This document shows, piece after piece, positions 3,001-32,071 of a DNA stretch of 35,584 bases; position 1 is the stretch's first letter, and every line of letters begins with the position of its first letter. Made by a program: the position numbers and the translations under genes. The stretch is taken from positions 1 through 35,584 of the forward strand of contig JAIXWM010000036.1 of NCBI GenBank assembly GCA_027491255.1, given 5' to 3'. The notes beneath the pieces were generated by a model that did not search any database, was not told the DNA's origin, and was given only the letters and a program-made list of their open reading frames with translations. The stretch comes from Rubrivivax sp. (GTDB taxonomy: Bacteria; Pseudomonadota; Gammaproteobacteria; Burkholderiales; Burkholderiaceae_C).

Positions 3001-5527
3001 TCTCCTTGAGCGTGTCAAAGCTCGTCGAGGCATTCGCCTTGATCGTGTCCACCACGCCCTTCAGCGCGGTGATCAGGCCTTCCAGCTCGCCCAGCGTGTC
3101 ACCGGCACCCGTGGCCGTACCCGTCAAGCCCGACACCGCCGTGGCGATCGCGCTGGCAACCGTCCCGGTGAGGTTGGCGAACCGGCCCTCGACAGCGCTC
3201 AGTCGATCGCCGACATTCAGACCCTGAAGCTGCTCCAGTGCAGCCTTGATGCCCACCAAGGAATTCAAGCTGGGGGCCACGTAGCCGGGCTGCCCGGGCG
3301 TGCCCTGAGCGTCGCTCACCAGGTTCGCGATCGCCGCGTTGCCGTCTTCCACGGCGGTCACGATCTGCGCCTGCAGCGAATCCACCTGCTGCGCCAGCGT
3401 CGGGATCGACGGGGCGGAAGAACTTTGCACCGCCATGACGACGGCCTTGGCCAGCAGCGCCTGTCCGGTGGGTGTGCCGGTGCTGGTGTCGGAGTTCCAG
3501 AGCGTCTGACCTGCGGCGTTCTTGACCTCGACAAAGCCGGACTCACCCGCGCCGAACCCGATCAGCGCCAAGTCCGGACCCGCGGAATTCTGCGGCAGCG
3601 TTCCGTTGGCGTTGACCAGCACCGTCCCGTCGGCAGCCACCAGGTTGCCGTTGACGATGTTCGATGCCTCGATGACCAGGGTCAGGCGGCCCAGGCCCGT
3701 GACGCTGGCGACCGAGTCCAGCGCCAGGAACTGGTTCAGCGTCAGCGTCAGCCCGGAGTTGACGACGAAGGCCGTGCCCGGCTGGATGTTCACCTCGCGC
3801 AGGTCGGCAGTGCCCTTCTTGACCTCGATCGTGTCGACATTCGAGAGGTCGCTGTCCGCGGTGAGGACGACCACGTCGTTCTTGTCGGCGAAGTCGAAGA
3901 CGAAGTTCTCGATCTGGGTCAGGCTGACGCTGGTGACCTTGAGGATGCGCACGTTGTCGGCGTCGTCGGCAAGGGCGAGCCGCACGGCGTCCTGCCCGGC
4001 ACCCATGTCGCCGCCCAGCGTGACCTGCACCGCCTTGTCCACGCGCAGCGACAGCGTGTCGTCACCCGGGGTGGCGTTGACGTTGACCACGAGTGCGGAG
4101 CCCTGCGGCACGTCGAGCACGTAGTCGCCCGAATCGGCCAGGAAGTCGGCAATGCTGAGCGCGGCCTTGATACCGGCACGCGTGAACGTGGCAGTGCCAT
4201 CGGCGTCCACGTCGAGCGTGATGGGGCCGCGCGCGGTCGAGTTGGCACCCAGGCTGACCACGCCACTGGGGGCGTCAAGGGTGGCGCCGAAGGTCACCGG
4301 CGGGTTGGTGCTTTCGTAGCCGGGCGTCGTCTGCACCAGCACGTTCGCCTGCGCGCCCGTGATGTCGGCCACGCCATCGTTGGTGGCCACCTGGATGCCG
4401 TCGATCGCCGACAGCGTCGCGCCCAGCACCGCCAGGTCCTGCGTGTCGGGGTTGGAAACGACCGCGGCAGCGACGTCGCCCAGCACGCTCACGAGCAGGG
4501 CTGCACCCGTCTCACCGCCTGCGGGCGCGTTGTCCAGGGCCGTGACCAGCGCTGCGGCCGCCGCGCCGAACTGCGTGGCGTCCCCGCCAGAGATCACCTG
4601 CAGCGCGGTCGCCACCATCACACCGGCCTTGAAGACCTCGAGCGCCTGGGCATCGCCTGCCTTGGCCGCCACGAAGGGGTCGACATTGAGCACGTCGAAG
4701 CCGGTGGGCAGGCCCAGCTGGGCCATCACGGCGTCGCGTGCGGCGTCAACGTCGCCAGTGGTCGCAGCGAGCTTTTCGATCAGCGTGGTCACCGGGGTGA
4801 CCATGGTCGAGCCCTCGGGCGCCGTCAGCACGCCCTTGAAAGGCTGGCCGGTGGAGGCGTCGATGCCGCCCGACACCTGGATCGGGCCGTCGCCGGTCAG
4901 GCCGGAGAAACGGCCGTTGGCGTCCGTCGTGACAGAGTTGCCGCTGCCGTTGACCCGGGTGACGGTGCCGCCCTGGATGTGGCCGTCGAGCGCGGTGCCA
5001 TCGGCACTGGCCGGCTGCACGCTGCCGCCGCCGCCCGCAGAGCTCTTGGAGCCGCCGCCGCCGCCCGCGCCAGCGCCCAAGCCCAGAGCCAGCAGGCCCA
5101 GCCCCAAGCCCGCCAGAGAGGTGCCTGAAGCACCGGCTGCGGCCGTGCTGGCGCCCGCCGATTCGGCCGGGGCGGGCGCAGCGCCAGCAGCCGGGGCCGC
5201 GCCCGCCGCTGACGAACCACCCGCGGCACCTGCTGTGGCCGTGGCGCTGCCACCCTGGCCGCCTGCCTGCGCCACCATGACCGCGTCAGGGCTGGCCGCT
5301 GCAGCAGCCTCGCCAGGCTGCTGGCCTTCGCCGGTGCGGCCCTGCGCCTGCTCTTCGTCTGCGCGCCGCCGGGCCCCGCCCTGGGCACGGTTCTGCGCCG
5401 GCGGCAGCGCCGCCTGCGTCGTGGCTGCCGGAGCACCCGCCGCCGGTGCGGCCGCTGGGTCGAGGAGACGAGTCATCGCGGTCTGGGCCTTGGCCAGCAG
5501 GGAAGTCGTCTTGCTCTTCTCGGTCAT
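1..5527 (-). CDS. Giant T1SS-type repeat adhesin, N-terminal part (gene continues past the left edge)
   Basis: The minus-strand frame opens at ATG 5527 behind a GGAG ribosome site and stays open to base 1, giving more than 1840 residues. The N-terminus (MTEKSKTTSLL) has no Sec signal. Next come an Ala/Pro-rich stretch and a hydrophobic Gly/Leu segment followed by poly-Gly (about residues 135-170). A small beta-rich plus helical module follows (about 180-400; contains TTDANGRF and MVTPVTTLI). Then come beta-rich repeats, five tandem 88-residue units (FDTLKEIGDAI core), and Big/Ig-like domains with PAAPVI and GTGETGATVTL motifs. The N-terminal Gly-rich hydrophobic segment may be a retention element, as in BapA/LapA-type adhesins; this is inference. 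It lies 35 nt after the hlyD-like gene of a type I exporter, its likely secretion route. The C-terminal secretion signal is outside the window, so substrate class is inferred from context. Confidence 0.85.
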   Translation of the reverse strand, partial: MTEKSKTTSLLAKAQTAMTRLLDPAAAPAAGAPAATTQAALPPAQNRAQGGARRRADEEQAQGRTGEGQQPGEAAAAASPDAVMVAQAGGQGGSATATAGAAGGSSAAGAAPAAGAAPAPAESAGASTAAAGASGTSLAGLGLGLLALGLGAGAGGGGGSKSSAGGGGSVQPASADGTALDGHIQGGTVTRVNGSGNSVTTDANGRFSGLTGDGPIQVSGGIDASTGQPFKGVLTAPEGSTMVTPVTTLIEKLAATTGDVDAARDAVMAQLGLPTGFDVLNVDPFVAAKAGDAQALEVFKAGVMVATALQVISGGDATQFGAAAAALVTALDNAPAGGETGAALLVSVLGDVAAAVVSNPDTQDLAVLGATLSAIDGIQVATNDGVADITGAQANVLVQTTPGYESTNPPVTFGATLDAPSGVVSLGANSTARGPITLDVDADGTATFTRAGIKAALSIADFLADSGDYVLDVPQGSALVVNVNATPGDDTLSLRVDKAVQVTLGGDMGAGQDAVRLALADDADNVRILKVTSVSLTQIENFVFDFADKNDVVVLTADSDLSNVDTIEVKKGTADLREVNIQPGTAFVVNSGLTLTLNQFLALDSVASVTGLGRLTLVIEASNIVNGNLVAADGTVLVNANGTLPQNSAGPDLALIGFGAGESGFVEVKNAAGQTLWNSDTSTGTPTGQALLAKAVVMAVQSSSAPSIPTLAQQVDSLQAQIVTAVEDGNAAIANLVSDAQGTPGQPGYVAPSLNSLVGIKAALEQLQGLNVGDRLSAVEGRFANLTGTVASAIATAVSGLTGTATGAGDTLGELEGLITALKGVVDTIKANASTSFDTLKEIGDAITAINSTISGLGGTYATDAELAAAQTALTTAYTTAVSDAVSTLKGGASATADTLGELEGLVTSLKGVVDTIKANASPSFDTLKEIGDAITAINTSVTSLGGTYATDPELTAAVNDLTTAYGTAISTAVSDLKGTATGAGDTLGELEGLITALKGVVDTIKANASTSFDTLKEIGDAITSINTTIANLGGTYATDTELTTAVNDLTTAYGTAISTAVSGLKGTATGAGDTLGELEALLTSLTGVVNTIKADASTSFDTLKEIGDAITLINTTITNLGSTYATDTELTTAVNNLTTAYGTAITTAVSGLTGTATGAGDTLGELEALITALTGVVGTINTGKTADFDTLGEVATAITALQTTVSSLQGATGSGGAVDTRLTALETKLAGISTTVVSAIKSVSLAPTLSVVGSDLADSVLQTSEGDLVVRVSLPSVAAATDTVQLLLGGSAFGTPKSNTLDASEVTAGYVDFTVTQAELGTAGQDKVITAKIASGAVTGNASAGLIFTLSGDAVAPNAPVLDPIASNDLVNKAEHDAVTWLTGTAEAGSKITIEFLVPGTPDTIISTRNVRADEFGNWALPYSSVTLPADGTYTVKVTSTDGDNNATSTQRTGVVIDSSAPAAPVINAVATDDVVDAIENGAGFAITGTGETGATVTLVLSSGRTLTAGNTATVVNGQWSIAVAANEAGQFFKVGDELITAHQTDPAGNVSTEVKRLIDVVTTVVAGGDLSAQSYAGVSKLELNDDSTLPTNQASLPLSIDAKGYDITIAGTVSLAGVTISNVKNLTVNTGVTATLTASQASAFNSAGSITLNGTGVVAATASGDLSVFDLDQVTLTLNGATTLPDSTGELPKAINAAGYAVTVGESVSLAAVTLTNPGDFVVAGGKTLTVTAAQANLIAAAMSTALTATVVADTAANLAAATAAATGTDALTFTVSAGTAAAADLNTLDGRTSVVVNATAVTTLTGLVADVKTAIAAAGISTSASYAATLTDVSVSVAD
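1885..3145 (-). repeat. Five tandem 264-bp repeats inside the adhesin
   Basis: The block CCGATCTCC and its flanks recur at 2205, 2469, 2733 and 2997, exactly 264 bp apart, with a diverged copy at about 1941. Each unit encodes 88 residues built around GAGDTLGELE, VVDTIKANAS, SFDTLKEIGDAI and GGTYATD. The heptad-like, Ala/Thr/Leu-rich pattern with D-T-L-x-E-I recalls repeats of phage tail-fibre and coiled-coil adhesin stalks. The inner copies are nearly identical, which suggests recent unequal recombination and a copy number that may vary between strains. Confidence 0.9.
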
Positions 5528-11261: not shown

Positions 11262-14099
11262 TCAGAACGAGTGGCCGACGCCGACGTTGACCATGCGCTG
11301 GCGGTTGTTGCTGAGGGCCGCACCGAAGCGCACCAGCGTCGACGAGCGCACCCGCAGCGAGCCGCCGATGGCCAGCGCGTTCGCGTTCAGGTAGCTGCCG
11401 ACACCGGCCGTGACGTTGAAGCGCTTGTTGGGGTCGACCTGCGGCATCGCGGCCAGCGCGCTGGCCATCGCCACGCCCGCGCCGAGCTGGCGGACGTTGA
11501 CGGCGTCGAAGTCGTCCTTGCCGTCATAGACACCGTGCACCCGCACCGGGCGACCGTTGGTGGCGTTGCTGAACGTCGCCCCGTTGTCGTCCAGCGTCAG
11601 GCTGGTGGAGTTGGTGCCGCCGGACATCGTGGCCTTCGTCTCGGTGATGACCAGACCGTGGGTGTTGCCCTGGCCGTTGGTCAGCGTCAGACCCGCGGTG
11701 GATTCGACCGCCGGGGTACCCGCGGCCACAGGCACGTTGGTGATCTTGCCGTTGGCGTCCACCACCGTCTGCGTGGTGGTGACGTTCGTGCCCTTCATGA
11801 CCACGGCCGTGCCGCCGCTGGTGGCGGCGTTGGAGAGATTGCTGGTGCCCGTGGCCCCCCTCACCGTCGTGTTGGCGGCGTCGCGCGACACGTAGTCCAG
11901 CGTGCCGTTGATGTAGACGTTGCCATCGACGAACAGGTTGCCGTTGATGAGGTTCTGGTACTGCTTGTTGCCGCCCAGGACGTTGCCCACCGTCGTGTTG
12001 GGCGCAATCGTCTGCGCCGTGTTGAACACCGTCATCCCGCCCGAACCCGAGGCGCTGGTGGTGCCGGACGTGCCGTTGGTGCCCAGCGAGGACAAGGGCC
12101 CCGCAGTCAGGCTGCCCACGGTGTTGGTCAGGCTCATCGTGGTGTAGCCGCTGCGCGCCGTCACTTCGTTCGTGTTGTACAGCCCCGAGTTGCCGATCGA
12201 CACCGCCTGCGTGTTGGTGCCGGTGTTGACGTTGGTCGCGAAGTTGTTGACGGTGCCGGCCGTGCCGACGTTGACGTTGGTCGTGCCGCTGACGTTGTTG
12301 GAGCCGTTGGCACCGATGGCCGAGATGTTGTTGGAAGCCCCGGCGCCGTTGGCCACGAAGTTGTTCTGGGCGTTCGCACCCGTGGCTTCGACCGTGTTCA
12401 AGGCCGTGGCCGTCAGCCGGTTGGCACCGTTGGTGCCCGTGGCCGACAAGGTGTTCGAGCCGTTGGCACCGTTGGCTTGCAGCGCATTCAAGCCGCTGGC
12501 GCCCGTGGCCGACAACGTGTTGCTGGCCGTGGCCGTCATGCTGTTCAGACCGTTCGTGCCCGTGGCCGAAATCGTGTTCGAACCGTTGGCACCGTTGGCA
12601 GACAGCGCGTTCAAGCCGCTGGCGCCCGTGGCCGAGATCGTATTGCTGGTCGCGGCGCTGATGGCGTTGGTGGTGGCGGCGGTGATCGTGTTCCCACCGC
12701 TGGACAGCATGCTGTTCGACGCGCCCGTGATCACATTGGTACCGCTTTGGATCGTCGTGGTGTTGGCCGCATTACCGATCGTCACCGCCGCATTGCTGTT
12801 GCCGGTGTTGATGTTGGTCGCGGCGTTGTTGCTGGCGTTGATGTTGGTGACACCGGTGATGTTGTTCGCGGTGGTCGCCGTGATGTTGTTCGTCGGGCCG
12901 CTGATGGTGTTGCTGGTCGTCGCGGCGAACGTGTTGGTCGCACCCTGCACGGTGTTGGTGGAGGTTCCGACGATACCGATCGTGTTCGTGCCGCTCACGA
13001 TCGACGTGGTGTTGGCCGAATTACCGATCGTGACCGCCGCCGTGCTGTTGCCGGTATTGATGTTGGTCGCGGCGTTGTTGCTGGCGTTGATGTTGGTGAC
13101 GCCGGTGATGGTGTTCGTCGCCCCCTGCAGGATGTTGGTCGATGTGCCGGCGTTACCGATCGTGTTGGTCGTGTTGAGGTCCGAACCGAGCGTCGCGTCG
13201 CCTAAGGATTGCAGCGTCCCGGCGAGCGTGGCCCCGCCGAAGCCCAACTGCAACTGGGTGTCCGAGCCACTCAGCATCACAACTCCGGTGTTGTTGCCGA
13301 TGCGGGTACTTCCAGTGCCTTCTCCGATACTGGTGAACGCATTGCCTGTGGAGTTGATCGAGGTCACCCCCGTGATGCTCGTGGTCCCCATGATCGAGTT
13401 GCTCGAGGTTGCGGAACCGAGCGTGTTCGAGGATCCCGCACCGGTGCCCAGGTTTGCATTGCTCGTGGAACTCAGCATGCCGGTGACCGCAACACCACCT
13501 TGGCCCACCACCGCTGATGCAAAGCCCGAACCCGACAACGTCACGTCGGGGCCCTGGGCCGACGTATTACCGATGAATGTATTGCCGCTGCCGCTGGTGT
13601 TGATCGTGGTTGTACCCATGATCGATACCCCGTTGGCAGATGGATTTGAAGAGCCGATACTCACGCCCCCACCACCGGCACCAATGCTGGTCGCCGCCGG
13701 ACCAATCGAATTGATTGACGTGGTCCCGAGAATTCGGTTGCCGGAGGTTGCGCTGCTGGAGATGGAATTGCTCCCGGACGCAATGGACACGGAGCTGTTA
13801 CCTTCAAGACGAGCCACGCCGTCGGTTGTGACAGACATGCTCGCCTGACTCAGGTTACCGTAATCTATGTTGTTGAAAATACCGTTGAAAATACCGCTTG
13901 TCGTAGAGTTGGAAAATATATAAACACCCTCAGAGGGTGCATTGCTGAAGTCGGAGTTACCGGTAATAACCACAGACCATGCAGAATCGATAAAATTATT
14001 TGGAACGTTGTTGACCTGAGCCATGGCAACGTTGGCGCCCATCAGTCCGAACACCGCCATCGATACCGCACTGAGCCGAATCTTCTTGTGAGCCTTCAC
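11262..14099 (-). CDS. YadA-type trimeric autotransporter adhesin
   Basis: 945 residues. Translation most likely begins at GTG 14099, 8-9 nt after AAAGGAGA. The N-terminus MKAHKKIRLSAVSMAVFGLMGANVAMAQ is a signal peptide. The passenger is Asn/Thr/Ser/Gly-rich with many short repeats (NAATNINTGNS, SATGASGLNAL, NGANGSNT), as expected for a trimeric stalk. Near the C-terminus lies the neck-like segment VYDGKDDFDAVNVRQLGAGVAMASALAAMPQ. A four-strand YadA anchor follows, ending VGVGHSF with the terminal Phe. The anchor trimer forms the pore that exports its own passenger (type Vc), so it does not need the adjacent type I exporter. It is preceded by two small exported-protein genes and followed by a beta-barrel gene on the same strand. 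Confidence 0.95.
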   Translation of the reverse strand: MKAHKKIRLSAVSMAVFGLMGANVAMAQVNNVPNNFIDSAWSVVITGNSDFSNAPSEGVYIFSNSTTSGIFNGIFNNIDYGNLSQASMSVTTDGVARLEGNSSVSIASGSNSISSSATSGNRILGTTSINSIGPAATSIGAGGGGVSIGSSNPSANGVSIMGTTTINTSGSGNTFIGNTSAQGPDVTLSGSGFASAVVGQGGVAVTGMLSSTSNANLGTGAGSSNTLGSATSSNSIMGTTSITGVTSINSTGNAFTSIGEGTGSTRIGNNTGVVMLSGSDTQLQLGFGGATLAGTLQSLGDATLGSDLNTTNTIGNAGTSTNILQGATNTITGVTNINASNNAATNINTGNSTAAVTIGNSANTTSIVSGTNTIGIVGTSTNTVQGATNTFAATTSNTISGPTNNITATTANNITGVTNINASNNAATNINTGNSNAAVTIGNAANTTTIQSGTNVITGASNSMLSSGGNTITAATTNAISAATSNTISATGASGLNALSANGANGSNTISATGTNGLNSMTATASNTLSATGASGLNALQANGANGSNTLSATGTNGANRLTATALNTVEATGANAQNNFVANGAGASNNISAIGANGSNNVSGTTNVNVGTAGTVNNFATNVNTGTNTQAVSIGNSGLYNTNEVTARSGYTTMSLTNTVGSLTAGPLSSLGTNGTSGTTSASGSGGMTVFNTAQTIAPNTTVGNVLGGNKQYQNLINGNLFVDGNVYINGTLDYVSRDAANTTVRGATGTSNLSNAATSGGTAVVMKGTNVTTTQTVVDANGKITNVPVAAGTPAVESTAGLTLTNGQGNTHGLVITETKATMSGGTNSTSLTLDDNGATFSNATNGRPVRVHGVYDGKDDFDAVNVRQLGAGVAMASALAAMPQVDPNKRFNVTAGVGSYLNANALAIGGSLRVRSSTLVRFGAALSNNRQRMVNVGVGHSF
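12180..13170 (-). repeat. Repeat-rich stalk region of the trimeric autotransporter
   Basis: Two long near-copies lie 249 bp apart (anchor TTGCCGGT at about 12799 and 13048; 83 residues). Between about 12430 and 12640 a 123-bp unit recurs (GTGCCCGTGGCCGA at 12433 and 12556; 41 residues). All spacings are multiples of three, so copy changes would lengthen or shorten the stalk without breaking the frame. Confidence 0.8.
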
Positions 14100-14853: not shown

Positions 14854-15111
14854 TTAACGCATTCCAACAGCAACGCATTCGTTTGTGTTGTGCCTCTCAT
14901 ACAAAGCGGTAGAGACGACCGCTTGGGCGCATGCGCCACCGGGCGGCGCCGCGCAGCCCGCCAGGCACGCCTGCGCAGGCAGCGGGCCAGCCAAGCCGTC
15001 CGCGCGCAGACCTGCGGCCCCGTCGGCCGGCCCGCTGTGCAAGGCACCGAGCGCGACGACCACCAGGAGCGCAGCACCCATGGCCACGGGCGTCTTGAGG
15101 CCAGGCTCCAT
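14854..15111 (-). CDS. Small exported or membrane-anchored hypothetical protein
   Basis: 85 residues from ATG 15111. MEPGLKTPVAMGAALLVVVALGALHS is one hydrophobic segment, either signal peptide or anchor. The rest is Ala/Gly-rich with four Cys (QACLAGCAAPPGGACAQ and NECVAV). It ends 9 nt before the next gene on the same strand, consistent with an operon. The AT-rich stretch just upstream (15112-15145) would be its promoter region. No family is recognised, and the call rests on position, start context and composition. Confidence 0.45.
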   Translation of the reverse strand: MEPGLKTPVAMGAALLVVVALGALHSGPADGAAGLRADGLAGPLPAQACLAGCAAPPGGACAQAVVSTALYERHNTNECVAVGMR

Positions 15112-15121
15112 GTCAGCGTGT

Positions 15122-15146
15122 GTAAGTTATCTAACTTAGTTTACAT
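15122..15146. promoter_or_regulatory. AT-rich inverted repeats between the guide-RNA promoter and the small exported gene
   Basis: TAAGTT-ATC-TAACTTA and the outer pair TGTAA...TTTACA form nested inverted repeats in an otherwise GC-rich region. The right arm TTTACA is also the proposed -35 box of the plus-strand guide RNA. TAGTTTACAT recurs in inverted orientation near 19284, upstream of the first sapC-like gene, and AGTTTACA recurs at 10380. It may be an operator shared by surface genes and the guide RNA; this is inference. Confidence 0.35.
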
Positions 15147-15169
15147 GGCTTGCGCACTTGCGGCATACT
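15140..15169 (+). promoter_or_regulatory. Putative sigma70 promoter of the crRNA-like RNA
   Basis: -35 TTTACA (15140-15145, 5 of 6 consensus), an 18-bp spacer, and -10 CATACT (15164-15169, 4 of 6). The predicted start is 15176-15178, about 24 nt before the repeat-like sequence. That is the guide length used by Neisseria-type Cas9. The segment 15139-15175 itself weakly resembles the repeat (GTT, then GCGCA and CGG at similar distances). It may therefore be a decayed first repeat whose end kept promoter activity, as in Neisseria II-C arrays. Confidence 0.55.
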
Positions 15170-15176
15170 CAGTTTT

Positions 15177-15236
15177 CGCAATAGCGTCAGTTGAAGGTGA
15201 GTTCCTTCCCGAGCGCATTTCCGAGCGAGGGCTCCC
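15177..15236 (+). ncRNA. crRNA-like guide RNA: single spacer plus one type II-C repeat
   Basis: Bases 15201-15236 resemble a 36-nt type II-C repeat beginning GTT. Bases 15211-15228 can pair with 18600-18617 of the tracrRNA-like gene over 18 consecutive positions with one G-U. The core GAGCGCATTTCCGA is a perfect 14-bp match. After one C/A mismatch, 15205-15209 pair with 18619-18623 in the same register, and GTT at 15201 pairs with AAC at 18626-18628. The upstream 24 nt (15177-15200, starting CGCAATAGCG) would be the guide, and transcription is predicted to begin at its 5' end. No further repeats lie beyond it, so this is a one-guide unit. A lone remnant of a lost array is the alternative. No clear terminator is seen. 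Confidence 0.7.
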
Positions 15237-15344
15237 CGGGCGGGCGGGTGGCGCAGTGGCAGCGGCAGCACCGCCGCCGTGGTCGCAGCGCGCCTCTCGT
15301 CCCGGGGCACGACCCGGCCCAAATGGGGGAAGGCTCTCAGCCTC

Positions 15345-18300
15345 TCAGTCGCTGAACCCCGGGTCGCGCAGCTCACCCAGCGGGCTGACAGTCACGCGCC
15401 GGGCGCCCCACTTGCGGGCCGTCTCGGCCGAGACGATGGCATTTACCAGCGTCTTGTCCTGGGCTTCCATGCGGCGCTTCGCGTCCGCCTCGTTGTGTTC
15501 GCACAGGTGGATGCGGCCGTCCTGGGAGACCATGCGCACGCGCATGAGGCGCAATTGCCCGCGCACCTCCATGCGCACGCAGTCGCCCTTGAACAGGCGC
15601 ATCACCAGCGGCCGGCCGCTGGCGGCGCGGCCGGGGTGGCGCAGGCGCTCGGCGCCATGCCGGCGCACGAGGTCGTAGACCGCAAAGGTCGTCAACACCT
15701 CGCTGTGCCAGCGCCCGTCGGCATCGCGAACGACCTCGACGCAGGCATTGCTGTCGCTCTTGTAGCCCTTGTAGGCGCGCGGCTCGCCGTCCTCGTCCAG
15801 CCCGTGCCGGTGCGCGGCCCGCGCGTCGGCGATGGGGATCACGCTCAGGTTCAAGACGACGCGCTGCCGGTCGGCCTGGCCCGGCGTGCGGGCCGCCACC
15901 TCGCCCGAGCCGCGCAGGCCGTAGGCGGTGTCGCGGTGCAGCGCGCCCTCGTGCCCGTGGTCGGGGCGGTGGCTCACCAGCACCGCCTGCGCGGCACGCT
16001 GCACGTGCTGCACGAAGGTGGGCCAGGGCGGCGCGAAGGCCTCGACGAGACCGCTCGCGTCCGCGTGCCGGGCCCGAGCTGCGGCCGCCGCCAGCCCGCC
16101 CAGGGTCCGTTCGTCGGTGATGCCGACGACGCAGGCGTCCACCGCGTGCCGGCGGTGGTCGTGCAGGTGGCCCGGCGCCTCGCGGCCGAGCGCGTCGTTC
16201 ACGCCCAGCTGCTGGCGCAGCAGGGCCGTCAGCCGGCCGGTGACCACGCGCGACGTGGCCGGGCACAGGTGCTGCAGGTAGCGGCGCAGCAGGTGGCTGG
16301 CCGCGTAGTCGTCCTGCAGGGCGCGGCTGATGCAGTCGGTGTGGCCGCGCAGCCAGGCCTGCAGACCGTCCCACTGCAGGCGCTCGCGCTTGTCGGCGGG
16401 CAGGCGGGCCCCGCCCGGCAGCAGGGCACCGAAGGCGGCCTGCTCGCCGTCGCCCTCGGGTGCGAAGGCCTCCCAAGGGGTCTGCAGGCCCTTGCGCAGC
16501 CGCGCCTGCCGGGTGGTCAGGGTCTTGTTGGACAGGCTGTCGTCCAGCGTCAGGCTGAAGGGCAGGATGTGGTCCACCACCGCCTCGCCCGACAGCACCA
16601 TGGCCGCGGTCAACGGCGCGCCGGTGTAGGGGCACTTCCGGTCGGCCTCGTCCTCGCCCAGTTCCTGCCACAGCCGCAGGCGCTGCACGACGTCCGGGCG
16701 CACGGTATCGGGGCTGATGCCGAGCTGCGCGGCGGCGGTCTCGCGCAGCTGCTGCGCCTGCGCCTGCAGGTAGCGCTGCCGCCGCGCGTCGCGCCGGCGC
16801 TGCTCGCTCGAGCGCTTGAGCTCGCGCGCGATCTCGGCCACCATCTCGGCCGGCCGGCCGTAGCGCTCGACGAGCGCGTTGACGACGAGCCGGACCTGGT
16901 TGAGCCCGATGTGCAGCGAGGGGTCGGCCACGCGGCCCAGGCGCGTCTCCTCGGCGTCCTGGGCGCGGCCGGTGCCGTGACGCAGGTGCTGCAGCAGCAC
17001 GACGCCGTAGTAGGGCAAGCCGGCGCCACCGTCCCCAGGGGCGGTTGCAGGGCCGGTGCGGCCATCGTCCTGCGGCCAGGCCAGGCCGGCGGCCTGCGCG
17101 GCCGCGCGCAGGCTTGCGGCCCCGGCCCGCAGCGCCGGCAGCACGCGGTCCAGCGCGGCCGCGCTCAGCGGGCAGTGGCCCGACGGCAGCCGCAGGGCCG
17201 AGATGCGGGCCGCCGCCACCGCGTCGACCCCGGCCTGCGCCTGCAGCCACTGCGCCAGCGCGCCGTCGTCGGTCTCCTGCACGAGCCGCCGCACGATCTC
17301 GTCCTGCAAGGCTTCGGGCAAGGTCGCCCAGCGCCGGCCGAAGGCGTCGCTCTTCGACAGCAGGGCCGAGGTGGCGTTGCCGCGGATGTCCTGGCGGCCC
17401 GTGCCGACGCCGCTGATGTGGGCGTCCGCGGGCAGGTCCAGCAGTTCGCGCAGCCGCGTGAAGCTCAGGGACACGGTGCGCTCGAGGGCGCGCAGCAGTT
17501 TTTCGCGCTGGGCCTCGGTCAGGGCGACGTCGGCCGGGCTGCCGCGCCAACGCAGCCGCAGCGCCTGCAGCTCGACGAGGATGCGCAGACGCTGGGCACT
17601 GGGCAGGGCGGTTGGGGCGCGGGGCTCGCAGGGCAGCAGCAGGCAGCGGCCGGGCTCGGGCCGCTGCCGCCCGCGCTCGTGCAGCAGCGTCTCGCGCAGG
17701 GCGTCGCGGGCGGCGTCGCTGCACAAGGCCGGCGAGAACGCGCGCTGCCGCTCCCACAGCAGGTCGAACTCGGCGGCGATCATGGTCCGGTCGGCCAGCG
17801 GCGGCAGCTCGCGGGGACGCCCCCGCCCTGCCCCGCCCGTCGGTTGGGCAGCCTCGCCCGTCGCGGTTGCGGTGGTCGCGGTGGCCGCTGTTGCCGCTGT
17901 TGCCGCTGTTGCCGCTGTTGCCGCTGTTGCTGCTGTTGCCGCTGTCGCCGCTGTCGCAGCTGTCGCCGGCTTCATCAGGCGCCGGCTGACCGGCGCGCGC
18001 GTCAGCAGGCCCTGGCGCAGGCGCGCATTCAGCCACTCGCCCACCGTGCGGGCGCCGCTGCGCTGCATGGCCTCGCGCGTGGCCTGCACGGCCTGCCGCT
18101 GCAGCCCGTCGGCCTCGTCGTTCGCGCCGAGCGCGCGCTCGAGCAGGATGCCGCGGCGCTGGTTCAGGTGGAACAGCGCGCGGCCGAGCTCGTGCGGCGC
18201 CAGCGGCTGGTCCAGGCCGCGCGTGCGCAGCTCGTAGGGATCCAGCTGCTCGAAGGCGCGCCGCGCCTGCGCGTCTGCCGGGAAGAAGCCGTGCGCCACC

Positions 18301-18533
18301 AGCAGCGCCATCAGCCGCTCCTTGCGCCGGACCTGGCGCTGGCGGCGCCGCCGGCGCGCGCGGGCGTAGCGGCGCTGAGCCCCCAGGGGCTCACCGGTCT
18401 TCGGGTCGCGCCCATCGGCGAACACGCGCACGCCGGCCCGGATCACGGCCATCGGACAACCCTGGGCGTCGAGCCTGATCGCAGACCAGCCCAGGAAGCC
18501 CGACCCGAGAGACAGGGCCAGCCTGTACCTCAT
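15345..18533 (-). CDS. cas9: Type II-C Cas9 with degenerate RuvC-I motif (catalytic Asp replaced by Ser)
   Basis: 1062 residues, the usual II-C size. The start MRYRLALSLGSGFLGW aligns with the RuvC-I consensus YxLGLDLGTxSxGW, but residue 8 is Ser (codon TCT at 18512-18510) where the metal-binding Asp belongs, and GF replaces the usual T/N-S. The Arg-rich bridge helix follows (about 50-75). A recognition lobe carries an Ala/Thr tract at about 188-225. RuvC-II MVAEIARE retains Glu567. HNH is intact (CPYTGAPL, D654-H655 in VVDHILPFS, N in SNKTL). RuvC-III RRHAVDACVV retains His796 and Asp799, with Arg795 replacing the usual first His. The PAM-interacting end has LFKGDCVRMEV and VTVSPLGELRDPGF, typical of II-C. 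By analogy with engineered D10 changes, RuvC cleavage should be lost, leaving a nickase or an RNA-guided binder. cas1 and cas2 are absent. ATG 18533 lies immediately after GGTGAGGGG. Confidence 0.95.
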   Translation of the reverse strand: MRYRLALSLGSGFLGWSAIRLDAQGCPMAVIRAGVRVFADGRDPKTGEPLGAQRRYARARRRRRQRQVRRKERLMALLVAHGFFPADAQARRAFEQLDPYELRTRGLDQPLAPHELGRALFHLNQRRGILLERALGANDEADGLQRQAVQATREAMQRSGARTVGEWLNARLRQGLLTRAPVSRRLMKPATAATAATAATAATAATAATAATAATAATATTATATGEAAQPTGGAGRGRPRELPPLADRTMIAAEFDLLWERQRAFSPALCSDAARDALRETLLHERGRQRPEPGRCLLLPCEPRAPTALPSAQRLRILVELQALRLRWRGSPADVALTEAQREKLLRALERTVSLSFTRLRELLDLPADAHISGVGTGRQDIRGNATSALLSKSDAFGRRWATLPEALQDEIVRRLVQETDDGALAQWLQAQAGVDAVAAARISALRLPSGHCPLSAAALDRVLPALRAGAASLRAAAQAAGLAWPQDDGRTGPATAPGDGGAGLPYYGVVLLQHLRHGTGRAQDAEETRLGRVADPSLHIGLNQVRLVVNALVERYGRPAEMVAEIARELKRSSEQRRRDARRQRYLQAQAQQLRETAAAQLGISPDTVRPDVVQRLRLWQELGEDEADRKCPYTGAPLTAAMVLSGEAVVDHILPFSLTLDDSLSNKTLTTRQARLRKGLQTPWEAFAPEGDGEQAAFGALLPGGARLPADKRERLQWDGLQAWLRGHTDCISRALQDDYAASHLLRRYLQHLCPATSRVVTGRLTALLRQQLGVNDALGREAPGHLHDHRRHAVDACVVGITDERTLGGLAAAAARARHADASGLVEAFAPPWPTFVQHVQRAAQAVLVSHRPDHGHEGALHRDTAYGLRGSGEVAARTPGQADRQRVVLNLSVIPIADARAAHRHGLDEDGEPRAYKGYKSDSNACVEVVRDADGRWHSEVLTTFAVYDLVRRHGAERLRHPGRAASGRPLVMRLFKGDCVRMEVRGQLRLMRVRMVSQDGRIHLCEHNEADAKRRMEAQDKTLVNAIVSAETARKWGARRVTVSPLGELRDPGFSD
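17878..17963 (-). repeat. 9-bp microsatellite inside cas9
   Basis: The unit GCCGCTGTT and close variants repeat about nine times head to tail, encoding an Ala-Ala-Thr tract in the recognition lobe just after residue 187. The 9-bp unit keeps the frame when copies are gained or lost. Typical II-C Cas9 proteins have no such insert at this point, so it is probably a flexible linker that expanded by slippage. Confidence 0.9.
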
Positions 18534-18555
18534 CCCCTCACCCGAAGAAAATCAT

Positions 18556-18585
18556 TTGCACCAGTTTTGGTGTATCTAATACAAT
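18556..18585 (+). promoter_or_regulatory. Sigma70 promoter of the tracrRNA
   Basis: -35 TTGCAC (18556-18561), an 18-bp spacer, and -10 TACAAT (18580-18585, 5 of 6). The predicted start is about 18592. It faces away from cas9, whose start codon lies 22 bp to the left, so the two genes are divergent. The AT-rich stretch probably holds the cas9 promoter as well. Confidence 0.75.
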
Positions 18586-18590
18586 GCTAA

Positions 18591-18676
18591 CCGTTCTAAT
18601 CGTTCGGAAATGCGCTCAGGAAGCTAACAAGCTGAAAGATGCGTCAAATGCGAGGGCCGCTATATGCGGCCCTTTT
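18591..18676 (+). ncRNA. tracrRNA, Neisseria-like type II-C
   Basis: About 86 nt. The anti-repeat is 18600-18628 and includes TCGGAAATGCGCTC, which pairs with the repeat-like element at 15201-15228. Downstream, CTGAAAGATGCGTC then AAATGCGAGGGCC resembles in order and spacing the part of Neisseria tracrRNA after the duplex (CTGAAAAGATGTGCC, CAACGCTCTGCC; recalled from knowledge, not searched). A short AGCT/AGCT hairpin may form at 18622-18633. The RNA ends in a strong terminator hairpin. An adjacent promoter, complementarity to a repeat on the far side of cas9, and the terminator together support a real gene. Confidence 0.85.
18654..18676 (+). terminator. Terminator of the tracrRNA
   Basis: GGGCCGC-TATAT-GCGGCCC forms a 7-bp perfect stem with a 5-nt loop, followed directly by TTTT (18673-18676). 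In tracrRNAs the terminal hairpin is usually also a Cas9-binding element. Confidence 0.9.
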
Positions 18677-18754
18677 GTTGTGCGCCCGGCACGGGCGCAC
18701 TCTTGGAGGCGCAAGTCTCTCCCGAGAGTTGATCACAGCGACCAAAGCGAAGGG

Positions 18755-19074
18755 CTACTGCACGAGGGCTCTCGTGACCGGTGCGCTGGCGCCGAAACTG
18801 ACGGTGAAGACCAAGGCGCCGGTCGTGGCGGTGCGCCGCTCGACCACCCGCGTGCCGGCGTAGGCGGCCGTGGATACCGTGTGATTGTCGGGACGTCTCC
18901 GTCCAAGGCGATGGCGGGCACCTCAGCGCGCACCGCCTGGGCACCCGCCCGCGTGGCATTCGGGATGGAACGGTAGCTCGAGGGCGTCGGCTCGACGGTC
19001 GCACATCCTGCCAGGACGAGCAGCGCAGCGCCCAGGATCGACACCCGCCAGATGCCTTGTTGTCCGGTGGCCAT
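18755..19074 (-). pseudogene. Small lipoprotein gene with an apparent frameshift
   Basis: From ATG 19074 the product starts MATGQQGIWRVSILGAALLVLAGCATVEP, a lipoprotein signal with lipobox LAGC. It then reads sensibly to about ALDGDVPTI near 18885. In that frame the remainder becomes Pro/Arg/Ser-rich nonsense. A different frame from there reads HTVSTAAYAGTRVVERRTAT, then TGALVFTVSFGASAPV, and stops at TAG 18755-18757, which looks like genuine protein. A one-base indel around 18880-18895 would explain both parts, giving an original protein of about 105 residues. It could be a true pseudogene, a programmed shift or a sequencing error. If read unshifted, the frame ends at 18733 with 113 residues. 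Confidence 0.55.
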
Positions 19075-19417: not shown

Positions 19418-20149
19418 ATGTTTCAGCAACTGGTTCCTGTCAACAAGTCCCGTCACGCAGCCACCCGGATCAAGCAGATCGAGGGCTTCGGCTTCGCATC
19501 GCAGTTCCACATCGCCTCGGTCATGGTGCACGAGTTCGCGCGCGCCTCGGCCATCTACCCCGTGGTCTTCCTCGAGGACAAGGCCCAGGACGAGTTCCGT
19601 CCGGTGGCGCTGATGGGCCTGGAGCAGGGTGAGAACCTGTTCGTCGACGCCCAGGGCAAGTGGGCCGCCTCCTACGTGCCGGCGATCATCCGCCGCTACC
19701 CCTTCGCCCTGGCGAGCACCGGCCAGGAAGGCCAGTTCACCGTCTGCATCGACGAAGGCAGCGAACTGGTGAACCAGACCGAAGGCGTGGCCCTGTTCGA
19801 CGACAAGGGCGAGCCCTCGTCCGCCATCGAGAACGTCAAGCGCTACCTCGGCGAGCTGCAGCAGATGGACGCCTTCACCCGGTCGTTCAGCAAGTACTTC
19901 GCCGAGCACAACCTGTTCACGCCGCTGAACATGCGCGTGCGCCAGGGCGAGCAGGCCCGTAACATCACGGGCTGCTATGTCGTCAACGAAGAGCGCCTGA
20001 ACAACCTCTCGAACGACCGCTTCCTCGAGATGCGCGAGAAGCGCTACCTGCCCGCCGTCTACGCCCACCTGGTGTCGCTGGCCCAGATCGAGCGCCTGAT
20101 GCAGCTGAAGGAAGAGCGCGGCGCCAAGGCCGCAGCCGCGCTGAACTGA
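19418..20149 (+). CDS. SapC-family protein (copy 1)
   Basis: 243 residues, MFQQLVPVNKSRHAATRIKQIEGF onward. Family marks include FASQFHIASVMVHEFARASAIYPVVFLED, PVALMGLEQGENLFVD, WAASYVPAIIRRYPFAL, CIDEGSELVNQTEGVALFDDKGEPS, and FLEMREKRYLPAVYAHLVSLAQIERLM. The SapC family is named after a gene in the Campylobacter S-layer locus; its biochemical role is not settled. No signal peptide or membrane helix is present, so it is probably cytoplasmic. The ORF at 31224-31991 is a clear paralogue that follows the motifs one by one. It opens a plus-strand group with two putative hydroxylases and faces the secretion operon, which suggests a common role in handling giant surface proteins. Confidence 0.93.
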   Translation: MFQQLVPVNKSRHAATRIKQIEGFGFASQFHIASVMVHEFARASAIYPVVFLEDKAQDEFRPVALMGLEQGENLFVDAQGKWAASYVPAIIRRYPFALASTGQEGQFTVCIDEGSELVNQTEGVALFDDKGEPSSAIENVKRYLGELQQMDAFTRSFSKYFAEHNLFTPLNMRVRQGEQARNITGCYVVNEERLNNLSNDRFLEMREKRYLPAVYAHLVSLAQIERLMQLKEERGAKAAAALN

Positions 20150-20201: not shown

Positions 20202-20930
20202 ATGTCGTGCCCCGAAGCGGATCAGGCCCTGGAGCCTGGACTTCGGGCGATGACGCAGGTGGATCCATCCCCCTGCAGCGTCTCGGGCGTCGCCGAGCTG
20301 GCGGTGCTCGAGCCGCACGAGTGCGGCGTATGGTGCGAACAAGTCCTGGCGCTGCGCGCGCAGTGGACGCCGCGCCACCCGAGCCTGCCCTTCTTCACGC
20401 TGGGGCTTGCGGCCTACCTGGACTTCGCACGCCGTGGCAATCCGCCCGCGACCTACCGCAGCTCTGCGCTGCGATCGCACTACAACGCGCTGCTGAGTCG
20501 CCATTTCGGTGGCCTGCTCGAGGCTTGCCGCACGGCGCTGGCCGTCCACACCGGCCTGGCCACTCGCTTCGCGCCTGATCGCGCGTCGCTTCCGGGCTTC
20601 CACATCCACCTGCCGCATCCCGTGTTCGTGGGCGAGGTGGCCAGCGTCCACCGCGACCTGCAGTTCCGCGACGTCTTCCCGGACGTGCCGGCCACGCGGG
20701 ACGACGTGCTGACCTTCACGGTGCCGATCGCCTTGCCGGCCGGCAGCGGGATCAACTTCTGGTCAGGCACCGAGAAGCGTTTCCTGCCCTACCATCTGGG
20801 CCGGATGCTGGTCCACGACGGACTCTCCACGCACCAGGCCGTGCTGCACCCGCAGAACCGGGACACGCCGCGGATCATGCTCCAGGGGCATGGCTTGCGC
20901 CATGCCGATGCCCTCGTACTCTACTGGTGA
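20202..20930 (+). CDS. Putative Fe(II)/2-oxoglutarate-dependent oxygenase
   Basis: 242 residues if it starts at ATG 20202; ATG 20250 is also possible, and neither has a strong ribosome site. The C-terminal half looks like a double-stranded beta-helix. It contains the HxD pair His150-Arg-Asp152 in VASVHRDLQF, the strand DVLTFTVPIALPAGSGINFW, a distal His at 205 or 211 (LVHDGLSTHQAV), and Arg224 in PRIMLQGH, a position fit for 2-oxoglutarate binding. The N-terminal half is helical and unrecognised. The substrate cannot be read from sequence. It lies between a sapC-like gene and an aspartyl/asparaginyl hydroxylase-like gene, so protein hydroxylation is a reasonable guess. Confidence 0.6.
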   Translation: MSCPEADQALEPGLRAMTQVDPSPCSVSGVAELAVLEPHECGVWCEQVLALRAQWTPRHPSLPFFTLGLAAYLDFARRGNPPATYRSSALRSHYNALLSRHFGGLLEACRTALAVHTGLATRFAPDRASLPGFHIHLPHPVFVGEVASVHRDLQFRDVFPDVPATRDDVLTFTVPIALPAGSGINFWSGTEKRFLPYHLGRMLVHDGLSTHQAVLHPQNRDTPRIMLQGHGLRHADALVLYW

Positions 20931-20952
20931 CCGGTCGAAAGGAGAGCCGCCC

Positions 20953-21603
20953 GTGACCTCGGCAGCACACCGCGAACCCCCGTTCTGGAATGAGCAGCTG
21001 CACCGCATCCCGTGGTGCCTGGAGTTGTTGGCCAAGGCGGCGCAGATCCGTGACGAAATCCTGGAATTCGTCTCGAGCAGCCGGCCGTTCATGCCCTATC
21101 CGAAGTACGGCAACCTGTACAGCAACACCTGGGACGCCTTCCCGCTGTCGATCTTCCAGGGCGAGCACATCGAACTGTCGCGCAAGAGCCTGGAGATCAA
21201 CATGTCGCCCCTGGTGGCGGCCTACCGCAAGCGCCTTCCCGCAGCCTCGAGCGTGATCGGGCCGCTCGAGGCCGAAGGCGTGCTGCGCAACGTCTTCGTC
21301 AGCCGCCTCATCCCGGGGTCGATCATCCACCCGCACCGCGGCTGGACGTCGGATTACCTGCGCATCCACCTGGGCCTGGTCTGCGACCCGGGCTGCGCCA
21401 TCACCGTGGGGGACGAGACGCGCACCTGGCAAGCGCTCGAGCTGCTCGCGTTCAAGGACGGCGGGCCCTATCCTCACAGCGTGGTTCATCACGGGACCAG
21501 CGCACGGCTGGTCCTGTCGCACGACCTGCGGCTGGATTACGTCGCCCGCTTCATCCCCGAAGTGCTGCCAACGGCTTGCGCGGCCACTCCTGCCGCTGCG
21601 TGA
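20953..21603 (+). CDS. Aspartyl/asparaginyl beta-hydroxylase-like protein
   Basis: 216 residues from GTG 20953, chosen because AAAGGAGAG stands about 7 nt before it. A longer frame from 20890 would overlap the previous gene. The core SRLIPGSIIHPHRGWTSDYLR, then IHLGLVCDPGCAITVGDETR, then PYPHSVVHHGTSARLVLSHDLRLDY matches the aspartyl/asparaginyl beta-hydroxylase fold. Likely iron ligands are His128 and His175 or His179, with Arg185 for 2-oxoglutarate. Such enzymes hydroxylate Asp/Asn side chains in proteins or serve in natural-product pathways. Here the obvious candidate substrates are the Asp/Asn-rich giant repeat proteins, which is inference. The 3' end overlaps the convergent acetyltransferase gene by 53 bp. 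Confidence 0.8.
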   Translation: MTSAAHREPPFWNEQLHRIPWCLELLAKAAQIRDEILEFVSSSRPFMPYPKYGNLYSNTWDAFPLSIFQGEHIELSRKSLEINMSPLVAAYRKRLPAASSVIGPLEAEGVLRNVFVSRLIPGSIIHPHRGWTSDYLRIHLGLVCDPGCAITVGDETRTWQALELLAFKDGGPYPHSVVHHGTSARLVLSHDLRLDYVARFIPEVLPTACAATPAAA

Positions 21604-29621: not shown

Positions 29622-31234
29622 GGCGCCACCGGCATGGACGTCTCGACCCCGTGCGCGTCGAGCAGCGTGCCATCCGCCAGGGCAAGCGACAGTCGTGCCG
29701 TCTCGACCCGACCTGTGGCCTCGAGGGTGCGGATCTGGGACTCGATCAGGTCCTGCTCGGCCAGCATCAGGCTGGGCGGAAGGGCCACGCCGGCCGCCAG
29801 GCGTCTGCGTTCATCCTCGAGGAACTGCCGGCGCATGGCCAGCTCCGAGCGCCGGAGCTCCAATTCACGCAGCGCCGAAGTCAAGGCCCAGAGACGGGCC
29901 GACAGGTCGTTGGCGAATGCAGAGGTGATGGCCTGGATCTCCGCATCCGATTGCGACACCCGCAATTGCTGGGCGAGGAGTTGCGCCTGCGTCTTGCGGC
30001 CCCCGAAAGCCCCCAGTTCCATGTTCAGACCCAGAGACCACTCGGGGTAATTGCCGCGGGACACCGTCGACAGCGACGAGGACACCTTCGGTTCCGAGCC
30101 GGAGGAGGTGTAGGAGAACTGAAGGTCGACCGCCGGCTTGGCCTGTTCGCGCGCGAAAGCCAGCCGCAGCAAGCCCTGCTCGCGCCGCAAGCGCGCGATC
30201 TGGTAGGCGGGCCACTGCACGACGGCCCGCTCGGCAATACGCTCGACCGCCTGTGGCGTCCAGCCGGCGTCCACAGGCTGCAGCGTCATGCCGTCAAGCT
30301 GGCTGGCGTCGAGATTGAGCGCGCTCAGCAGGCGCACCCGCGCGTCGTCGTGGGCCTGGGCCGCCTTGCCCGCCTCGGACAGGCGGTCCAGGCGCAGCCG
30401 TTCGACCTCGGCCACCGCACGTTCGGCCATGCGGCCGGAGCGCACGCGCTGACGCGCGTCGTCGAGCTGCGCGTTGCTGGTGCGAACCAGCTCGTCGCGC
30501 AGCTTGCGGGATTCCGCCGCGAACCAGGCCTGCCAATACAGGGACAGGCCCTCGCCGACCACTTTCTGCAACTGCTGCCTGAACTGCCACGCCGCGACCT
30601 GCGCTTCGAGTTCGGCCACCCGCTTGTCGGTCTCGGTGTACTGGATGCCCCGGCCGCGCATGAGGGGTTGGCGAAAGGCCAGCACCAGCGCCGAGGAGGC
30701 CCGGATTTCAGGCGGGTACCTGGCAGGATCGTTGCCTTCGAGCGTGCGGGTGCGGACCGTGGCACTGACGTCGCCACCGGTAGGCGACTTCTGGCGCACC
30801 CCGACTTCCAGCGTGTTGCCCTGCTCCTCGAGCTTGAGGAACAGCCCCTTGTTCTTCAAGGCGTCGTCGAGGATTTCCTGCGACGTGCGCTGCCGGTCGG
30901 TCAGGGTCCGGCGGATGGCGCCGAAGACCACGGGCTCGTACAGAGCAGCCTCGGCCCTGAAGAGGGCACTGGCGATCGATGCCGAATCGCGCGCGTACGC
31001 CAGCTCCAGGCTGCGCGTGACGAGCAGTTGCGCCACCGTGTTCGGCTGCAGCACGGCCACCTGCGCAGCGGCCGGCGCCGTCTGCGGCGTCGGCGGCGTC
31101 GGCGGCGAAGCCACCGGCTGGGCCTGCAGGCCGCTGGCAGCCAGAACCCCGGCGACCCCGACGATCAGGCTGGCGGCCCGGCATGCTGCGGGAGAACGGC
31201 CGCGCACGCGGCCCGGCAACACATCACTTCGCAT
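29618..31234 (-). CDS. TolC-family outer-membrane factor (second copy)
   Basis: 538 residues, longer than the exporter TolC at 9023-10288. The signal peptide is long and Arg-rich (MRSDVLPGRVRGRS, then SLIVGVAGVLAASGLQAQ), followed by a Pro/Thr/Ala linker. The barrel and helical domain has LQPNTVAQLLVTRSLELAYARDSASI near the start, the EPVVFGAIRRTLTDRQRTS strand, long coiled-coil segments (about 190-260 and 420-500), and AYQIARLRREQGLLRLAFAREQAKPAVDLQFSY, typical of the repeated half. It overlaps the sapC-like gene by 11 nt and the adaptor by 4 nt. It is expected to be the outer-membrane channel of the SecA/M50/HlyD route. Confidence 0.9.
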   Translation of the reverse strand: MRSDVLPGRVRGRSPAACRAASLIVGVAGVLAASGLQAQPVASPPTPPTPQTAPAAAQVAVLQPNTVAQLLVTRSLELAYARDSASIASALFRAEAALYEPVVFGAIRRTLTDRQRTSQEILDDALKNKGLFLKLEEQGNTLEVGVRQKSPTGGDVSATVRTRTLEGNDPARYPPEIRASSALVLAFRQPLMRGRGIQYTETDKRVAELEAQVAAWQFRQQLQKVVGEGLSLYWQAWFAAESRKLRDELVRTSNAQLDDARQRVRSGRMAERAVAEVERLRLDRLSEAGKAAQAHDDARVRLLSALNLDASQLDGMTLQPVDAGWTPQAVERIAERAVVQWPAYQIARLRREQGLLRLAFAREQAKPAVDLQFSYTSSGSEPKVSSSLSTVSRGNYPEWSLGLNMELGAFGGRKTQAQLLAQQLRVSQSDAEIQAITSAFANDLSARLWALTSALRELELRRSELAMRRQFLEDERRRLAAGVALPPSLMLAEQDLIESQIRTLEATGRVETARLSLALADGTLLDAHGVETSMPVAP

Positions 31235-31991: not shown

Positions 31992-32071
31992 CTGTTTTCC
32001 CCCCGTAGGACGCAGAGCCAATTTAATCGCTTTAACCCGCTAACCCACTGTAAACGATCTTAAAGGCACCT

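Follow-up and report, generated by a model that had tools for sequence, protein, structure and literature searches.

A RuvC-inactivated Cas9 with its own fixed guide in Rubrivivax: a candidate RNA-guided DNA-binding regulator alongside an ordinary type II-C locus

The window considered here is a stretch of 35,584 nucleotides that makes up the entire contig C52 of a 6.5-Mb, 202-contig Rubrivivax sp. assembly. Within it, a gene for a RuvC-dead Cas9 and two flanking predicted guide-RNA genes form a second Cas9 locus, additional to an ordinary II-C locus elsewhere in the assembly. The cas9 gene (type II-C, 1062 aa) occupies positions 15345-18533 on the minus strand and is identified by its TIGR01865 match, an HNH_4 domain and alignments. 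Downstream of the cas9 stop codon and facing the gene is a plus-strand promoter-guide-repeat unit (15140-15236), which consists of the promoter TTTACA-N18-CATACT (15140-15169), a 24-nt guide that is the predicted 5' part of a crRNA (15177-15200), and a single CRISPR-type repeat, GTTCC...GAGCGCATTTCC (15201-15236), recognized by eye from its homology to the canonical repeats of the family. Upstream of the cas9 start, and divergent from cas9 as in the canonical loci of the family, is a predicted tracrRNA gene on the plus strand (about 18591-18677), in which an antirepeat (18600-18628) is followed by the core and then by a terminator (18652-18674). The window contains no cas1, cas2, or array, and the Cas1 and Cas2 proteins of the ordinary locus (contig C192) find in it a best match of only E 0.097 over 20 aa. 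It also contains no second repeat, the next best 32-base match being the antirepeat. The surroundings are rich in surface genes, including a YadA-anchor adhesin (11262-14099), SapC (19418-20149), and an Asp/Asn hydroxylase-family gene (20890-21603); further neighbours are ABC, HlyD, OEP, SecA-like, and M50-like genes, the M50-like match lying below the Pfam cutoff. It is possible that the locus is tied to the control of surface genes.

The repeat and the antirepeat are complementary across the length of cas9. Bases 15211-15228 and 18600-18617 form 18 uninterrupted base pairs with a single G-U (15225/18603). Past this run are a C/A mismatch (15210/18618) and five more pairs (15205-15209 with 18619-18623), and the pairing ends with GTT (15201-15203) against AAC (18626-18628). 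An earlier note on this DNA had described the pairing of the two elements flanking cas9, and a direct base-by-base reading found every detail of that description correct. The note had also judged the perfect 14-base complementarity (15211-15224) unlikely by chance; indeed, none of 1000 dinucleotide shuffles of both intergenic regions reaches it (maximum 13, mean 7.6). The duplex energy of the whole regions, which are GC-rich, is unexceptional (-132.4 versus a shuffle mean of -121.3, sd 7.1, minimum -144.2, in 200 shuffles), and the evidence therefore rests on the 14-base run and its register.

The promoter of the crRNA unit is the sole strict sigma70-type match between 14900 and 19450, where 0.1 would be expected, and the same scan returned none for the tracrRNA. 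Sigma70-like promoters had been claimed for both RNAs; the claim holds for the crRNA unit, whereas the tracrRNA has only a -10-like TACAAT (about 18580-18585, plus strand), which was picked out by eye and is kept in a second species. The terminator claimed for the tracrRNA was recovered as one of three terminator-like sites in the scanned region, against 1.1 expected. Taken alone, the tracrRNA folds better than its shuffles (z -2.99, with 1 of 200 as good), and the crRNA unit does not (z +1.01). No Rfam family matches at gathering score, and the five weak Rfam matches in 14900-19000 (E up to 5) fall on neither the crRNA unit nor the tracrRNA. The sequence supports the earlier claim of a RuvC-defective Cas9 equipped with a tracrRNA and a dedicated crRNA unit of one spacer. 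The accompanying label of a "single-guide" locus has to be taken to mean one guide on two RNAs, not a fused RNA.

The cas9 product scores 409 bits against TIGR01865 (cutoff 100), and its closest relatives are II-C-type Cas9s. Among Pfam families, HNH_4 is above its cutoff, and RuvC_III and Cas9_a are just under theirs. In an alignment of 222 Cas9s (218 listed database matches, the window protein, and three fetched loci), the RuvC-I Asp is replaced by Ser at residue 8, which bears out the RuvC defect read earlier from the DNA; RuvC-II Glu567, HNH Asp654, His655, and Asn669, and RuvC-III His796 and Asp799 are retained. The D10A form of SpCas9 sets the precedent for a target-strand nickase that arises from loss of the RuvC-I Asp. 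With this Asp replaced and the HNH residues kept, the prediction for the window Cas9 is, at most, nicking of the target strand.

Across the 222 sequences, 205 have Asp at the RuvC-I position and 6 have Ser; 5 have some other residue, and 6 lack the position. All 222 retain the HNH His and Asn as well as the RuvC-III His; the HNH Asp/Glu is gone in P0004, P0129, P0187, and P0218, the RuvC-II Glu in P0005 and P0187, and the RuvC-III Asp in P0010, P0131, and P0147. The window Cas9 and its relatives P0001-P0005 form one clade (support 1.0, stem branch 0.74-0.76). P0001-P0004, with 87, 74, 72, and 55% identity to the window Cas9, all have Ser at RuvC-I, and the N-terminus of P0005 is absent, so that Ser occurs in all five clade members with a known N-terminus. 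P0004 looks dead in both nuclease sites, and since it lacks the HNH Asp, nicking seems dispensable in this relative. In a FastTree phylogeny of the 222 sequences, three further D10-less proteins group with the six at support 0.999: P0129 (Ser), P0131 (Glu), and P0010 (Gly). These three cluster together when the six are left out (0.976), and when the three are left out the six attach beside P0153, P0142, and P0143 (0.92-0.93). The trio shares up to 62-67% identity with D10-bearing Cas9s, versus about 46% with the window Cas9; a single shared loss of RuvC is therefore not claimed, and the attachment of the trio to the six-member clade is possibly due to long-branch attraction.

The ordinary locus is on contig C192 of the same assembly, although misbinning of a contig is conceivable. 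It is a complete II-C locus with a tracrRNA, cas9, cas1 (TIGR03639), cas2 (TIGR01573), and the start of an array of 36-nt repeats with one 30-nt spacer, and all seven checked catalytic residues are present in its Cas9. The orphan repeat and tracrRNA pair with an energy of -45.2 kcal/mol and the canonical pair with -53.2 kcal/mol, whereas the two crosses reach only -29.2 and -24.4 kcal/mol. The orphan and resident guide scaffolds are accordingly predicted to be separate, with little cross-pairing, and the orphan Cas9 locus is not this genome's immune system. The combination of a dead RuvC, an intact HNH, a tracrRNA, no array, and an intact II-C Cas9 locus in the same genome recalls the decoy anti-CRISPR mechanism proposed for the phage Cas9 variant II-C2 (PMC10910872), by which the tracrRNA of a RuvC-dead Cas9 would capture resident crRNAs. 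However, the orphan tracrRNA pairs with the resident repeat at -24.4 kcal/mol, versus -53.2 for the resident tracrRNA, and this poor pairing disfavours a decoy role. The locus also has a crRNA unit of its own, and those neighbouring genes that match Pfam families belong to the cell surface and to secretion. A decoy role is thus highly improbable.

The same locus is found in one other genome of the genus, G465, which is evidently the same as G001 and as the MAG Loclat_bin-11913 (contigs L001 and L002). Because the genome collection holds one genome per species, G465 is counted as another species. Identity between the two crRNA units differs sharply by segment: 19/28 upstream, 6/6 in the -35 box, 11/18 between the hexamers, 6/6 in the -10 box, 4/7 from the -10 box to the guide, 24/24 in the guide, 35/36 in the repeat, and 70/108 downstream. 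On the tracrRNA side, identity is 25/27 in the antirepeat and 50/51 in the core, compared with 36/57 in the gap between cas9 and the tracrRNA and 20/38 past the terminator. The pairing is therefore conserved where cas9 persists, as the earlier note had asked of relatives, albeit in a single other genome. With one genome pair and sites taken as independent, the guide (24/24) differs from the flanks (104/161, 65%) with p 7e-5, and the guide plus the first 32 repeat bases (56/56) differs from the same flanks with p 1.6e-9. Of the 31 bases between the -10 box and the repeat, the 7 nearest the box vary (4/7), whereas the 24 of the guide are invariant (Fisher p 0.008).

The cas9 gene is under purifying selection, with a dN/dS of 0.25 over 1048 codons between the two species. 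The lowest value (0.12) is at residues 870-1062, by position the WED/PAM-interacting part, and the value around HNH is 0.33. The N-terminal dN/dS is 0.30, versus 0.055-0.29 in the 15 closest canonical pairs (whose dS is 0.68-2.73), and constraint there may therefore be partly relaxed. The two genes that follow the crRNA unit are also retained in the second species, in a 3.1-kb stretch of 82.7% identity that takes in the end of cas9; upstream of the tracrRNA of this species is a gene about 31% identical over 159 aa to the M50-like gene of the window, in a different order. The tracrRNA core, at up to 3 mismatches, occurs in 22 of 399 family genomes. A D10-bearing cas9 adjoins the core in 19 of the other 21, and in the remaining 2 no RuvC-I motif is found in the flank. 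Within the genus, 3 of 81 genomes have the core, namely the two with an orphan locus and G427, which has a D10-bearing cas9, and the orphan crRNA unit is present in only two genomes.

These comparisons bear on whether the locus is a decaying remnant, a broken II-C locus in the process of being lost whose guide was kept by chance. The loss of cas1, cas2, and the array, the long stem branch of the clade, and an N-terminal dN/dS exceeding that of canonical pairs would all fit decay. Yet the cas9 frame is full-length with constrained codons, the guide and nearly all of the repeat are invariant amid flanks of 65% identity, and the RuvC-less clade extends to 55% identity, which together make this explanation rather improbable. 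The locus instead appears to be a maintained, array-less, single-guide Cas9.

Searches for the target of the guide returned the guide itself. With 23 bases and up to 3 mismatches, it occurs at one place in its own genome (the crRNA unit), at two places in the 81 genus genomes (both crRNA units), and nowhere but at itself in the 399 family genomes. The longest seed match elsewhere in the window is 9 bases, in a repeat protein at 34594 on the minus strand. A 12-base seed with up to 1 mismatch has 34 places each in G000 and G001, units included, versus 15 and 15 for a backwards control; a 10-base seed has 20 and 28 places versus 5 and 4, an excess that is unexplained. A review of the 16 homologous pairs of seed places in G000 and G001 (places without a counterpart and L088 lie outside it) showed that 15 align at the seed and that all 16 are in open frames of at least 429 codons on one strand, none recognisably intergenic, although in a GC-rich genome such frames are no proof of coding. 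No seed match in a promoter was recognised among the examined places. Each genome has one more perfect 12-base match (L012, L013), which are mutually non-homologous and in long open frames. A 10-base match is also present inside the resident cas1 (C192:3884-3893, minus strand). A target match of the 11-bp scaRNA type is not separable from chance without a PAM.

The guide was also compared with viral sequences. Its 19-mer has none in IMG/VR, but a 16-mer matches 67 viral contigs versus 6 for the reversed 16-mer, and its last 18 bases match 44 IMG/VR contigs versus 1 for the reversed 18-mer (a single control). In all 44 contigs the match lies in a long frame that encodes the peptide motif RQLKV, and one is a confirmed portal protein (phrog_1216). 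These portal matches, with the intact HNH residues of the window Cas9, would rather suit a hard-wired defence, in which a Cas9 with a dead RuvC but a working HNH site would nick or block a mobile element matched by the guide and acquisition has been given up. Such nickase defence is the main rival explanation because HNH nicking alone is described as able to protect against phage (PMC12455587). However, the first 6 bases of the guide agree with the portal genes at only 2-3 positions (21/24 at best for the whole guide), and the guide carries a stop codon in the portal frame. The spacer is for these two reasons probably not from a portal gene, and coincidence with an abundant gene is more likely than a portal source of the guide, though it does not fully account for the matches. 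There is also no match in the phage collection, plasmids give just 19/30 bases in three Enterococcus records (E 0.4), and P0004 has dispensed with the HNH Asp. Defence is, on balance, unlikely.

The complex could also act on mRNA rather than DNA; binding or cleavage of RNA is described for some II-C Cas9s (PMC13431127), the HNH site of the window Cas9 is intact, and a short RNA match would slip past DNA searches. Against such an RNA-directed function, the tightest constraint on the protein is in its C-terminal, DNA/PAM-reading part, and this function is quite improbable.

The orphan locus is best read as an exapted regulator that would bind DNA under the direction of one fixed guide RNA. The loss of the RuvC residue, the locus's own guide-RNA genes, and a guide identical in a related species lead to the prediction of fixed-target binding. 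It is a serious possibility, short of a probability, that Cas9 and both RNAs form one complex, which would bind a fixed DNA target, make no double-strand break in it, and likely act as a repressor of transcription. Among possible outputs repression is favoured, since non-cutting binding has this effect in engineered dCas9, the DNA-reading part of the protein is the most constrained, and one relative lacks the HNH Asp. HNH may still nick, and binding would be what selection keeps. The crRNA unit would be all that survives of a lost array, its last repeat-spacer-repeat step, in which the upstream repeat would have retained only its promoter function. Thirty-one bases separate the -10 box from the orphan repeat, canonical spacers being 30, so that the transcript would begin within the old spacer and carry a guide of 24 nt; the variable 7 and invariant 24 bases of this interval fit such an origin. 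In some II-C arrays, as described in PMC7038990 (citing N. meningitidis), the repeat end forms the -10 box and the crRNA starts within the spacer, and the same source gives 23-26 nt of spacer for C. cellulolyticum crRNAs. Several observations count against a regulator: its target is absent from the searches, the HNH residues are kept, only two genomes carry the unit, and there are the portal matches. A disabled nuclease that lacks acquisition, has a scaffold to itself, and carries an invariant guide would suit a fixed-target DNA-binding device. The locus may tentatively be regarded as natural CRISPRi, in which a II-C clade without RuvC cutting, acquisition, or an array, but with one guide and a private tracrRNA, serves as a dedicated fixed-target repressor.

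The canonical II-C loci of the family (L135, L008, L040-L061) share with the orphan locus the tracrRNA core and the divergent tracrRNA-cas9 layout. The repeats of L008 and L135 start with GTTCC, like the orphan repeat, and their spacers are 30 nt; unlike the orphan locus, both have a D10 cas9, cas1, cas2, and an array. The nearest described system in the open-licence literature is II-C2, in the accounts of which (PMC10910872, PMC12669027) a II-C phage Cas9 likewise has an inactivated RuvC, an intact HNH, and a nearby tracrRNA without an array. Compared by these described features, II-C2 differs in three respects: it is found in phage genomes beside an SNF2 helicase, whereas neither such a helicase nor a phage family was recognised among the 18 window proteins (a subset of the ORFs) scanned with Pfam; its tracrRNA fits host repeats, whereas the orphan tracrRNA misfits the resident repeat; and only the orphan locus has a dedicated crRNA unit. 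The open-licence literature yielded no chromosomal case of a RuvC-dead Cas9 that has a crRNA unit to itself, a search whose limits make it no proof of novelty.

Francisella scaRNA regulation, as described in PMC12231574, resembles the orphan system in its Cas9, tracrRNA, one extra guide RNA, and binding without cutting, a likeness read here from sequence only; an extra guide RNA that pairs with the tracrRNA is present at the orphan locus. Francisella Cas9 is cutting-competent, also serves in immunity, and has a known target gene, to which scaRNA makes a partial match of 11 bp in its own genome, whereas the orphan Cas9 is RuvC-dead and a target among its own genes was not found; scaRNA-like regulation, of which the arrangement had been said to be reminiscent, is at most a conjecture here. 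TldR and the orphan system, as proposed here, would share one logic, in which an RNA-guided nuclease that has lost its activity and keeps to one guide acts as a transcription factor, but TldR is TnpB-derived and phage-encoded rather than Cas9-derived (PMC13418256). Both scaRNA (PMC12231574) and TldR (PMC13418256) are precedents for regulation by binding only.

On the present reading, a dedicated, naturally RuvC-dead Cas9 with its own fixed guide would share a cell with an intact Cas9 locus. Engineered dCas9 is a standard laboratory tool; if this reading is true, the orphan system would provide a natural counterpart that nicks or binds and uses a guide scaffold of its own, and the role of a fixed chromosomal Cas9 guide becomes directly testable. 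It would also show bacteria building RNA-guided regulators from CRISPR immunity, in parallel to the TnpB-derived TldR.

The last 18 bases of the guide in the orphan crRNA unit occur in a portal-type gene on 44 viral contigs, against one for the reversed control, in which the same 18-mer is read backwards. These 44 (among L142-L207) are a subset of 67 viral-contig loci matched by a 16-mer of the guide. The Rubrivivax assembly that carries the orphan cas9 also holds a complete canonical II-C locus (L135; contig C192 of G000, positions 1-5075), comprising a tracrRNA, a cas9 that retains D10, cas1, cas2, and the start of an array. This resident locus came to light through a 10-base match to the orphan guide seed within its cas1 (L135:3884-3893, minus strand); the match may be due to chance.

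Elsewhere in the window are two SapC genes (19418-20149 and 31224-32021), together with SecA-like, M50-like, and HlyD genes, near a long repeat protein delineated by eye (32072-35560). This group looks like a dedicated export cluster.

The orphan cas9 contains a 9-base tandem repeat (window 17868-17958) that codes for an Ala-Ala-Thr-type linker, and by eye the relatives of this Cas9 have a far shorter version or none. In the alignment, the RuvC-I Asp is replaced in three more database Cas9s: by Ser in P0129, which also lacks the HNH Asp/Glu, and by Glu in P0131 and Gly in P0010, both of which are also missing the RuvC-III Asp.

Among the family genomes, G329 carries a pair of tracrRNA cores (L057/L062) separated by roughly 1 kb, and the antirepeat of the second one differs. 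In genome G427, a lone repeat-like stretch, GTTCCGGCCGGAGCGCATTTCCC (L136:1396-1418), lies between the cas9 and the tracrRNA of a canonical D10 locus and is perhaps another array-less guide unit.
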